The notes under the pieces are model-generated. The model was not told the origin of the DNA, did no database searches, and worked only from the letters and a program-made list of their open reading frames with translations. Positions 9,048 through 58,485 of a stretch of 64,000 bases of DNA are shown here, piece after piece. Every line of letters begins with the position of its first letter. Position 1 is the first letter of the stretch. The DNA is from Thermosediminibacteraceae bacterium (GTDB taxonomy: Bacteria > Bacillota > Thermosediminibacteria > Thermosediminibacterales > Thermosediminibacteraceae): the NCBI GenBank assembly GCA_021890755.1, contig JAKKUQ010000007.1, positions 1-64,000 on the forward strand, given 5' to 3'. The translations under genes and the position numbers were made by a program.

Positions 9048-9773
9048 TTATATTTTTGCTTTGTATTCGTACGGCAGGGAGACTACCTTTCCGTAGGTGT
9101 CTATTGTAACAAGGGCATTTAATGCATCCTTCAAAATTGCAGTCTGCATTGCCTTATTGTTGGGTTCGCCGACGTTAGCTCCCATGGGTACCATTGGTGC
9201 GACCATCCTCGGTGAACCCTGCTGCTTGGCCACAGGCGGCAAAGCAGCTATTAAGACCGTCGGAATTCCCGCACTTTCAATTGCTCTCTGCACAATCACG
9301 GCAGAGCGGTGGCAGGTCCCTCACCCAGCGGTCAAAACGGCCGCATCAACTCCTTCTTTTTTGAGTATTTCTGCAATCTGGGGACCCGTTTCTTCTTGGA
9401 ATTTTTTGACATTACCTCCTCCGCCCATAAATCCAATGTGCACGGGTGCAACTGCTTTTATAAAACCTTCTTTGGCGAGTTCCCTGAGTCTATCGATAGG
9501 AAACATGCAGTTTATATCCTTGTTCACGTCGGTGTTATCGTAGCCGCCGTGGGTCACCATTAACTCGGAGGATGGTGTGTCTCCCGGTATTTCTCTGAAA
9601 GTAAAGTCTCCGGCCAGGTTAAATGGTTTTTGAGATTTCATGTGAATACCTGCTGCAGACACTAGAGCCACGGTGCAGTCTTTGAGCTCTTTGGTAAAGG
9701 GCGTATATACTGGTGGCGGAGTAATCGGCACGTAAATTTCCGATTGAAGCCCTTCCACAACGGTAAGCTTCAT
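9048..9773 (-). CDS. prdB: D-proline reductase selenoprotein subunit PrdB (in-frame UGA = Sec151)
   Basis: Catalytic selenoprotein subunit that, with pyruvoyl-bearing PrdA, reductively cleaves D-proline to 5-aminovalerate. The frame continues through a single TGA at 9321-9323: ...DAAVLTAG-U-GTCHRSAVIVQ..., the U-x-x-C redox motif of the family. Total length with Sec is 241 residues, agreeing with known PrdB of about that size with Sec near 151-152. Conventional gene calling would split it into two pieces (9321-9773 and 9048-9299). The ATG follows GGGAGGT. A hairpin 13 bases after the UGA is a candidate SECIS. It lies between a small CBO2463-type ORF and prdD. Confidence 0.96.
9283..9323 (-). 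promoter_or_regulatory. Sec codon and candidate bacterial SECIS of prdB
   Basis: On the mRNA, UGA (9323-9321) is followed after 13 bases by the stem GCTCTGC paired with GCAGAGaGC (one bulged A), closing a 9-base loop at 9292-9300. Distance and size fit bacterial SelB-binding hairpins; clostridial SECIS sequences are poorly conserved, so this is a structural prediction only. Confidence 0.55.
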
Positions 9774-47259: not shown

Positions 47260-47277
47260 AAGTAAACCTTAAGGTTC

Positions 47278-47370
47278 ACGTGCTTCCCTACGCGGGCATT
47301 ACCCCGATCAGGTTATGGGGTCGAAGCCCGGTTCACGGGCTTCCTCTCAGCCGAAGCTCCCCCAGCACGT
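47278..47370 (-). ncRNA. TPP riboswitch (thi box)
   Basis: Minus strand: P1 ACGTGCT pairs with AGCACGT; conserved CTGAGAGG, ACC(T)GATC and TAATGCCCGCGTAGGGA cores are in the right order. Controls thiT by transcription termination. Confidence 0.97.
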
Positions 47371-47674
47371 ATTTCACATAATTCATATTAATTGTGATGA
47401 ATAAATAATTCACTAAAAGAGAATTTATTATCTATGGAATATTATACATCAAATTCACACTAAAATAAAGACTACCATAAAGATTGCCGTCAAAATCTAT
47501 CGGTTTTTATTAAAAATGTGAGATATTTTAAGATAGCGGTTGATTTGAAAGGTTAAACTGCTGCTTTCCACCCCAAATAGGTAGAATTTTATATTCTCTT
47601 AAATTTGCTTTTATAGTATTAGAGGAGTATGGTTTGAATAAAGAAACACAGTATTCGAAGTAAGGTGATTTAAC
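47371..47674. other. AT-rich divergent promoter region (thiT / V-ATPase)
   Basis: No gene is seen. On the minus strand a TATAAT at 47446-47441, upstream of the riboswitch, may be the thiT -10 box. For the V-ATPase operon I found no convincing -35/-10 pair; TATAGTATTAG near 47613 is a weak candidate. Confidence 0.45.
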
Positions 47675-55613: not shown

Positions 55614-56240
55614 ATGAGGGAAAATATAGCTCCCACAAAGGCCAATCTTATAGCTGCAGCCGCTGCCCTGGAGTTTTCACGGAAGGGTTACGAACTCCTG
55701 GACAAAAAAAGGAACGTACTCATAAGAGAAATGATGGGATTGATGAAAAGGGCTGCGGAAATTCAGGATAAAGTAAATAAAATCTTCAGCGAAGCTTACG
55801 AGGCCCTTCAAATGGCCAATATAACCTTGGGTATCTCCCAGGTTTACCAAGTGGCAAGGTCTATTCCGGAGACTGCAGAGTTTACCATACTTACCCGCAG
55901 TGTAATGGGCGTGGAAATCCCAGTCGTCAGATACCAAAAGAACAAACTTGAGCACTATTATAGTTTTTACCATACCAATGCAGCTTTAGATGTAGCCCTT
56001 AAAAAATTTCACGAGGTCAAGTACCTGCTCTTTGAACTTGCAGAAGTGGAAGATTCGGTTTATAAACTCGCAGTTGAGATAAAAAGAACCCAGAAAAGGG
56101 CCAATGCCCTTAAAAACATACAGATACCAAAATTAGAGTCTATTGTAAAAACGATCTCGGAAATGCTTGAGGAAAAGGAAAGAGAGGACTTTTTCAGGCT
56201 GAAAACCCTGAAAAATAAATTAAGCGATGCAGAAAAATAA
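55614..56240 (+). CDS. V/A-type ATPase subunit D (rotor shaft)
   Basis: 208 residues, two long helices flanking a small middle region: N-terminal IAPTKANLIAAAAALEFSRKGYELLDKKRNVLIREM and C-terminal RTQKRANALKNIQIPKLESIVK. It is the central shaft turning inside A3B3. I chose the ATG at 55614 (MRENIAPTK); the Shine-Dalgarno is weak and translation probably follows that of subunit B. Last gene of the operon, followed by a terminator. Confidence 0.94.
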   Translation: MRENIAPTKANLIAAAAALEFSRKGYELLDKKRNVLIREMMGLMKRAAEIQDKVNKIFSEAYEALQMANITLGISQVYQVARSIPETAEFTILTRSVMGVEIPVVRYQKNKLEHYYSFYHTNAALDVALKKFHEVKYLLFELAEVEDSVYKLAVEIKRTQKRANALKNIQIPKLESIVKTISEMLEEKEREDFFRLKTLKNKLSDAEK

Positions 56241-56276
56241 GCTCCTACAATATCGCAGTATTGTAGGAGCTTAATT
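56241..56276. terminator. Bidirectional terminator between V-ATPase operon and P-type ATPase
   Basis: A perfect 12-bp stem GCTCCTACAATA with its complement and a 6-base loop. The 3' sides are TTAATTACTTT (plus strand) and TTATTTTTC (minus strand). Confidence 0.85.
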
Positions 56277-58398
56277 ACTTTACAAAACTTTTCATCCTCA
56301 ACAACCTCATCCCATTGAACGTCACAAGTATAGTCGCTCCCATATCGGCCATAATTGCAAGCCAGAGCGTCAACCACCCCGGGAATGTGGCAATTACCGC
56401 CGCAATTTTAAGAAGCAACGACAGGGTTATATTCTGCCTTATAACCTTCATAGCAGCCCTGCTCAAGCGAACCGTAAAAGCAACTTTGGTCAGATCGTCG
56501 GTCATTAAAACTATGTCAGCTGTCTCAAGAGCCGTATCGGTTCCGGTTCCCCCCATCGCTATTCCCACGGTAGCTGCCGCCAATGCCGGAGCATCATTTA
56601 TGCCATCTCCCACCATGGCTACCTTCTCGTATTTTTTTATTAAATCTTCGAGAGCCCTCACCTTATCCTGCGGAAGCAGTTCGGCGAGAAATTCGTCGAC
56701 TCCTGCACGGTTGGCTATAGCTTCAGCTGTAGCTTTATTGTCGCCGGTGAGCATGACCGTCCGCTCGATGCCGGTATGTTTTAGTAAAGCTATAGCCTTT
56801 TTGCTCGATTCCCTTATCTCGTCGGCAACTGCAATAATTCCTATAATGTCTTTTTCTGTACCCACCAGCATGGCCGTCTTTCCTTCCTCTTGGAGGCGCT
56901 CTACGGTAGATGCTATTCCTTTCGTCTCTATACCCATTTCTTCAAACAACCTTAAATTCCCTATAAGTACTGCTTCACTTTCCACTGTAGCCTTTACCCC
57001 TCGACCAGTCAAAGCTGTGAAATCCTCGGCCGGTATTATTTCTATACCCTGGTCTTTTGCAGCTCTAACTATAGCATTCGCAAGAGGATGTTCCGATAGA
57101 TTTTCTACACTTGCAGCCTTACGCAGAACTTCTCTTTCTGATTCAACACTCACCGGTATTACGTCAGTGACCACTGGCTCCCCTTTCGTAAGAGTGCCAG
57201 TCTTGTCAAAAGCGATAACCTTCAACGTTCCTGCTTCTTCCAGGTAAATTCCGCCTTTTATCAATACCCCGTGCCTTGCCGCATTGCCTATTGCACTTAC
57301 TATAGCGACAGGTGTTGAAACTACTAGAGCACACGGACAAGATACCACCAGCAAAGCCAGGCCGCGGTAAATCCAGGACTGCCATTCATAGCCAAGGAAA
57401 AGCGGCGGGAGTAGCGCTATGGCACCAGCAAGCACAAGTACAATGGGGGTATATACAGCTGCAAATCGATCCACGAAGGCCTGAACTGGAGCTCGCCTTG
57501 TCTGGGCCTCCTCAACCAGGTGTATAATTTTCGCAAGAGTAGTATCCTGGACACGTTTCGTCACTTTAACTTCCAATGAACCCTGAATATTAAGCGTCCC
57601 CGCATATACCTCGTCTCCGGGCCCTTTATCTGCTGGTATGGATTCTCCTGTGATAGCTGCTTCGTTTATAGCAGACTCGCCCTTTATTATGATCCCATCC
57701 ATTGCTATCTTCTCCCCGGGACGAATTACCATTATATCACCTATATTAATTTTATCCACAGGGACATCCACTTCGCCCCATGGTTTTTTTATTCTTGCAG
57801 TCCTGGGTGCTATGTCCATGAGCAATCGTATTGATCGTCTCGTTCTCTCCACTGTCCACGATTCCAGCATTTCTGAAATTGAATAAAGGAAAGCTACAAC
57901 AGCTCCTTCTTCCAGCTCGCCAATTGCCACTGCTCCAATAACAGCTATACTCATTAACACGCTCATATTGAAATTAAGGCATCTTAAAGAATAATAAGCC
58001 TTCCGAAAATTCCCCCAGCCTCCGGTGATCATAGCAAGCAAGTACAGAAGTACATAAATATAAGCTTTTATACCTACCATTTTCCCGATATAAGCCGCAA
58101 AAAGTACAGCTGCAGACATCGCAGCTCGAAGCAATTCTCTGTTTATTCCTATCACCGTTTGAACCTTCTCCTCTTTTTCTTCGACCTGGAATATTTTATA
58201 GTTTTCCTTGAGGCCTTCTCGCCGAATTACCTCAAGGTCTATTTTGCCTTCCACGGTGAGTTTTCCAGTAGTTGGGTTCAAGCAAGCCCTGGTAACTCCA
58301 GGGAGCTTCGCCACGTTTTTTTCAAACTTGGCGGCACAATCGAGTCATGTTATACCCTCAACTCTGTATACTTTAACATCTTTTACTTCCTTCCCCAC
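56275..58398 (-). CDS. Zn/Cd-type P1B-ATPase with probable selenocysteine in its HMA domain
   Basis: Heavy-metal efflux pump, 707 residues if TGA at 58345-58347 is read as Sec18. The N-terminus then is an HMA domain, VYRVEGIT-U-LDCAAKFEKNV, with Sec replacing the first cysteine of the GMTCxxC site. Downstream: TGES (250-253), the transport motif CPC (354-356), phosphorylated Asp398 in DKTGTLT, GDGIND, and MADMGA in the last membrane pair, as in Zn/Cd/Pb pumps. The GTG at 58398 has AAAGGGG seven bases upstream; no good start exists after the TGA. A hairpin lies 11 bases after it. The alternative is a nonsense mutation of TGC/TGT or a sequence error, leaving a pump that lacks the N-terminal half of its HMA domain. 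Confidence 0.75.
58309..58347 (-). promoter_or_regulatory. In-frame UGA and candidate SECIS of the P-type ATPase
   Basis: After UGA (58347-58345) and 11 bases comes CGCCA-a-GTTT-gaaaa-AAAC-g-TGGCG: two stems of 5 and 4 bp with a 1x1 internal loop and a 5-base apical loop (58333-58309). Offset and size resemble the prdB candidate. Confidence 0.5.
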
Positions 58399-58456
58399 CT
58401 TACCACCCCTTTCGTCATTTGAACTATTATTTAAATGTTTATATATCGTCCATTAT

Positions 58457-58485
58457 ATTATATACAAACTATTAACCAATTGCAA
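58457..58485 (-). promoter_or_regulatory. Promoter of the P-type ATPase
   Basis: Minus strand: TTGCAA (58485-58480), a 17-base spacer, then TATAAT (58462-58457), about 60 bases upstream of the GTG. Confidence 0.75.

Follow-up and report, generated by a model that had tools for sequence, protein, structure and literature searches.

A predicted selenocysteine at the first metal ligand of a CadA/ZntA-like P1B-ATPase and its exchange with cysteine among relatives

Introduction

The 64,000-nucleotide stretch of Thermosediminibacteraceae DNA analysed here (hereafter the window) carries a heavy-metal ATPase gene whose frame is interrupted once, by a TGA that falls where the N-terminal metal-binding (HMA) domain should have its first cysteine. 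Is this codon a stop, an error or a site of selenocysteine (Sec) insertion, and what kind of pump would carry Sec at such a position? In most known selenoproteins Sec serves redox catalysis, and a conserved Sec at the metal-binding site of a transporter raises the question of what selenium is worth as a metal ligand. The answer also bears on annotation, as gene calling with UGA as a stop would strip the metal-binding domain from these cadmium-type pumps.

Results

The read-through frame encodes a P1B-2-type ATPase

On the minus strand, 58398→56275 forms a single frame of 708 codons, 707 residues of a P1B-2 (CadA/ZntA-like) ATPase plus the TAA at 56277-56275, which opens with GTG and has the TGA at 58347-58345 as its sole in-frame interruption. 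Its features are:

56275..58398, minus strand: gene for a P1B-2-type heavy-metal ATPase with a predicted Sec (frame read through the TGA, Pfam, TIGR01525, 4umv)
58345..58347, minus strand: UGA at codon 18 (predicted Sec), where the UxxC motif of the HMA domain has its first ligand (aligned TGA or TGC/TGT in relatives)
58396..58412, minus strand: Shine-Dalgarno sequence (AAAGGGGTGG) followed by the GTG start, 58398-58396
58457..58485, minus strand: sigma-70-like promoter TTGCAA-17-TATAAT, by consensus match only (10/12)
58201..58371, minus strand: region coding for the HMA domain, residues ~10-66 (Pfam; the closest solved structure is that of the CadA N-terminal domain, 2aj0/2aj1)
57331..57339, minus strand: transmembrane CPC metal-site codons, residues 354-356 (by position in the read-through frame)
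56238..56273, no strand assigned: hairpin resembling a bidirectional terminator, between the ATPase gene and the V-ATPase subunit D gene that converges on it (from the sequence)

A first-pass annotation of this DNA had placed a TGA at the first HMA cysteine, and both coordinates and codon are exact; read through, the surrounding motif is GIT-U-LDCAAKFEK. The upstream GTG with a Shine-Dalgarno sequence that it had proposed is likewise in place, and the GTG at 58314 is disfavoured as the sole start, since no Shine-Dalgarno sequence precedes it and initiation there would halve the HMA domain.

Pfam recognises HMA, E1-E2_ATPase and Hydrolase domains in the read-through protein, the HMA domain at residues 10-60 with 40.9 bits (cut-off 24.8). 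TIGR01525 (heavy-metal P-type ATPase) matches over its cut-off with 625.8 bits, ZntA-like models scoring best and copper ATPase models lower. The motifs TGES (residue 250), CPC (354), DKTGT (398), HP (437) and GDGxND (597) are all present, and K664 and D685 (in LLKIAAV and MADMGAT) align with the two ZntA transport-site residues, Lys and Asp, found close to the C-terminus. Shigella ZntA (4umv, E 8e-137) is the solved relative of the whole protein, and the HMA domain matches, at full length, the CadA N-terminal domain (2aj0/2aj1), the closest among metal-specific structures; in the GIT-U clade the Glu of ENYK aligns with a Glu of the CadA domain. The ATPase therefore resembles the CadA/ZntA exporters (P1B-2; 2aj0, 4umv) in domain order, CPC, Lys and Asp ligands and HMA domain, as do its relatives in having a CadC-like regulator next door. 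It differs from them in that its first HMA ligand would be Sec and in the residue before it, which is Thr (Asp in ZntA).

Regulators beside related genes suggest a Cd/Pb/Zn substrate

Of the 44 Sec loci collected below, 37 have an ArsR/SmtB gene no more than 1.2 kb upstream, and the encoded proteins almost always carry ELCVCD together with an N-terminal Cys pair, as CadC does. In CadC, the cysteines of ELCVCD and of the N-terminal pair bind Cd/Pb. Because CadC-like regulators are found upstream so often, the likely substrate of these pumps is Cd/Pb/Zn. An adjacent CadC-like ArsR gene is absent beside the window gene and two of its relatives (L003 and L004), so that the cadmium link there runs via homology and via a lone CadC-like gene on contig C91 of the window's genome, which is unlinked to the ATPase and conserved across the family; in the region upstream of the window gene, scanned for an ArsR operator, no inverted repeat passed the threshold. 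The best reading of these sequences is that the window ATPase is a Cd/Pb/Zn exporter with a putative U-x-x-C HMA site.

A copper (P1B-1) exporter using Sec as a Cu(I) ligand would be consistent with the GxT-type motif, which is like the GMTCxxC of copper HMAs, and with the lower-scoring copper ATPase matches. We consider it improbable by a wide margin, however, given K664 and D685 as in ZntA, the CadC-like regulators upstream in relatives and an HMA domain that matches CadA over its whole length.

A SECIS-like hairpin is under selection in UGA forms only

Two hairpins follow the UGA:

58309..58333, minus strand: core SECIS-like hairpin CGCCA-A-GUUU-GAAAA-AAAC-G-UGGCG (fold z, synonymous-codon control, covariation)
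58287..58303, minus strand: second hairpin CCCUGG-AGUUA-CCAGGG (fold), ~41 nt after the UGA

The first-pass annotation had described a hairpin at SECIS distance; such a hairpin is present, with its position now sharpened, as the best candidate starts ~12 nt 3′ of the UGA and reaches its apical loop at 21 nt. The rule for bacterial SECIS elements (bSECIS) calls for an apical loop of 3-9 nt with a G in the first two positions, 16-37 nt from the UGA, an upper stem of at least 4 bp and an MFE of at most -7.5 (PMC13188914). The core hairpin lies within these bounds (loop GAAAA with G first, 21 nt, stem of 4+5 bp, -9.8 kcal/mol); applied strictly, the rule admits 20 of the 41 Sec sequences and 4 of the 49 Cys sequences. 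The 61-nt stretch of the window folds with z -3.67, and four Sec sequences (window, L003, L004, L009) range from -3.5 to -5.5, compared to ~+1 in two Cys relatives. The second hairpin is kept in L003, L004 and L009 and absent in the Cys form L007.

Since the protein is itself conserved, synonymous-codon shuffles were used as the control. Measured against them, 41 Sec sequences have a mean z of -1.55, with 18 at p<0.05, and 49 Cys sequences a mean of +0.33, with none at p<0.05. The difference corresponds to a Mann-Whitney p of about 1e-11 (7e-8 within the T/S-type motif only), values that are too small because related sequences are not independent. In the Sec alignment 81.6% of cells are paired versus 37-60% for slid controls, and the Sec forms covary at columns 15-39 (C-G/G-C exchange) and 24-30 (C-G/U-A); pairing in the Cys alignment is at the level of its own shuffles. 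The hairpin is thus under selection in the UGA forms only, beyond coding constraint.

RNAalifold returned no consensus structure for the Sec alignment, which is mixed, and the Thermincola-type GxDU group (L011, L013, L061, L072, L073, L092) gave no clear hairpin of the common kind. The SECIS of this group may differ from the common kind; bacterial SECIS elements are often unlike one another (PMC13188914).

The UGA exchanges with cysteine codons

The DNA pattern G-x-x-TGA-x-D-C-A, scanned across 84,980 species, gave 48 matches, about two thirds of them in-frame HMA ATPases and about one third chance matches with short frames. The matching lineages include Coriobacteriia and other Actinomycetota, Thermincola, Desulfovirgula, Symbiobacteriaceae, Syntrophomonas, Desulfosporosinus, Dethiobacter and others; the TGA-specific pattern succeeded here, whereas a protein pattern run over genome contigs gave no matches. 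Searching 399 genomes of the phylum yielded further Sec forms, among them a CadA-like subgroup whose motifs are GFTU/GFSU, and the total stands at 44 Sec loci, from about 41 genomes that belong to Bacillota or Actinomycetota. CPC and DKTG are retained in all 41 long Sec proteins.

Homologues with Cys have TGC or TGT at the UGA codon and the non-Cys loci that were read have TGA. The alternation that the first-pass annotation had proposed to look for is seen in relatives, which have TGA or TGC/TGT at this codon and no unrelated stops. On a tree from which the HMA domain was left out, built by a quick method with SH-aLRT support only, parsimony needs 10 changes between Sec and Cys, of which well-supported branches force at least 8.

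The exchange can also be followed at a single locus. Two Sec genomes, the window's and G002 (G004 has ubiA too), share the gene arrangement ubiA - ATPase - V-ATPase subunit D (vatD) with a sister genus without Sec (G003, G005, G006, G008). At this locus G005 has an intact Cys HMA domain; in G003 and G006 the domain has decayed, leaving just GITCPDCAARFED ahead of the membrane part, and in G008 none can be recognised. Sec, Cys and decay thus all occur at one orthologous locus, with no order of states implied, and the family offers natural Sec/Cys pairs there for testing the role of Sec. In the sister genus, the orthologues L005, L006 and L008 at this locus have a decayed or missing HMA domain.

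Some pumps carry more than one HMA domain. L077 (Syntrophomonas sp. STD2_151) has three in tandem, the first with Cys (GITCMDC) and the next two with TGA (GITUMDC), so that two Sec residues are predicted in one protein, and L095 (Dethiobacter) combines a Sec HMA domain with a Cys one. The in-frame TGA of L106 (G282) was rejected as a Sec codon: it falls at a Trp codon shortly before CPC, outside the metal motif, in a genome where SelA is absent, SelB gave none over the cut-off and tRNA-Sec no match. This TGA is a mutation or sequencing error.

Sec machinery and alternative readings of the UGA

Of the Sec machinery on which the first-pass annotation depended, selA, selB and tRNA-Sec (selC) are present in the window's genome, in a row on contig C112 (selA-selB at G000:C112:12486-15974). 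A second selA-selB pair lies on C20 (G000:C20:613-3878), the tRNA-Sec having been found beside the C112 pair; the two pairs may reflect duplication or contamination. The window holds a second selenoprotein gene, prdB, also named in the first-pass annotation:

9321..9323, minus strand: in-frame UGA of prdB (TIGR04483 on read-through)

Read through this TGA (9323-9321), prdB scores 434 bits against TIGR04483, which bears out its assignment as a Sec gene; its hairpin and that of the ATPase, which the annotation had proposed to compare, are different in detail.

SelA was found in 35 of the 37 Sec-form genomes tested, the other two being a MAG of 1.8 Mb and that of Alicyclobacillus sp. ALC3, which is complete. 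The latter contains two TGA-form ATPases (L080, L087), one also frameshifted, and in it SelA is absent, SelB gave none over the cut-off and tRNA-Sec no match; there the TGA form was probably acquired by transfer and left stranded. The same result for SelA, SelB and tRNA-Sec came from four Cys-form genomes.

If the UGA were a real stop, a shortened ATPase would be made from a downstream start (e.g. GTG 58314) and the HMA remnant would be dead. Such a model can draw on ALC3, as a genome with the UGA form in which Sec machinery was not detected, and on the dispensability of the HMA domain, seen in its decay or loss in G003, G006 and G008. Yet the Sec-form HMA domain is intact and conserved on either side of the UGA, GTG 58314 is without a Shine-Dalgarno sequence, the codon is TGA in the loci read whenever it is not Cys, and the hairpin is selected only in UGA forms, all of which makes termination very unlikely. 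Near-cognate Trp or Cys readthrough is a slimmer prospect again, considering how widely SelA accompanies the Sec forms, that the UGA substitutes for Cys and not Trp, and that a hairpin sits at SECIS distance. Finally, although the window comes from a 158-contig assembly, a sequencing or assembly error hiding TGC, TGT or TGG, a concern of the first-pass annotation, is refuted in practice by TGA at the same codon in independent genomes, among them two from within the family (81-82% identity), one a single contig and the other that of the isolate Thermosediminibacter litoriperuensis DSM 16647. We infer that Sec is inserted at this codon.

Discussion

Relation to known selenoproteins

A Sec-containing P1B ATPase family already stands on published lists of predicted selenoproteins, which give one reference accession, ABB15669.1, an ocean survey contributing one sequence (PMC13188914, PMC9312934, PMC2398784). 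The window gene therefore joins a known predicted selenoprotein family; judged by the published descriptions, both are P1B ATPases with Sec in UxxC that were found by UGA/Cys pairing. The family was reportedly first listed in a 2007 paper. The first-pass annotation noted that Sec for Cys in HMA-type UxxC motifs had been reported; its view that Sec in a P-type ATPase is rare holds in part, as the Sec forms extend to about 41 genomes and the family had been listed. The window gene is a well-supported member in which Sec insertion is predicted, and the present analysis extends the lists by its larger sample, by testing the SECIS hairpin against codon constraint, by tracing Sec/Cys exchange both along a tree and within a single locus, and by the association with CadC. 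Sec at a predicted soft-metal site is also described for a mercuric transport protein and for SaoL/SaoB/SaoC (PMC13188914), which belong to other families and are not P-type ATPases.

A possible role for Sec in the pump

We hold with high confidence that the gene encodes a Cd/Pb/Zn-exporting P1B-2 pump in which UGA 18 is decoded as Sec via SelB and the hairpin, placing a U-x-x-C soft-metal site in the HMA domain. Such a CadA/ZntA-type ATPase would move Cd2+, Pb2+ and Zn2+ out of the cell. The UGA would be translated through SelB, Sec-tRNA and the hairpin directly downstream, and the resulting Sec, with the Cys three residues later, would form the soft-metal site of the N-terminal domain. This domain may sample or sense metal and regulate the pump, and the transport site proper would be the ordinary CPC (354-356) with K664 and D685.

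The first-pass annotation had suggested that Sec at this ligand could alter soft-metal affinity or redox sensitivity. Along these lines, Sec might allow tighter or faster binding of soft metals when metal is low, or it might gate the pump by redox in anaerobes. A broader proposal, which we put forward tentatively and rate somewhat short of probable, is that Sec truly acts as a soft-metal ligand, not as a catalyst, within the regulatory domain of a cadmium-type efflux pump, repeatedly exchanged with Cys and in some pumps present in two tandem HMA domains, where it would tune metal selectivity or redox-gate the pump.

Elsewhere in the window, a TPP riboswitch lies at 47268-47373 on the minus strand (RF00059, 66.4 bits).
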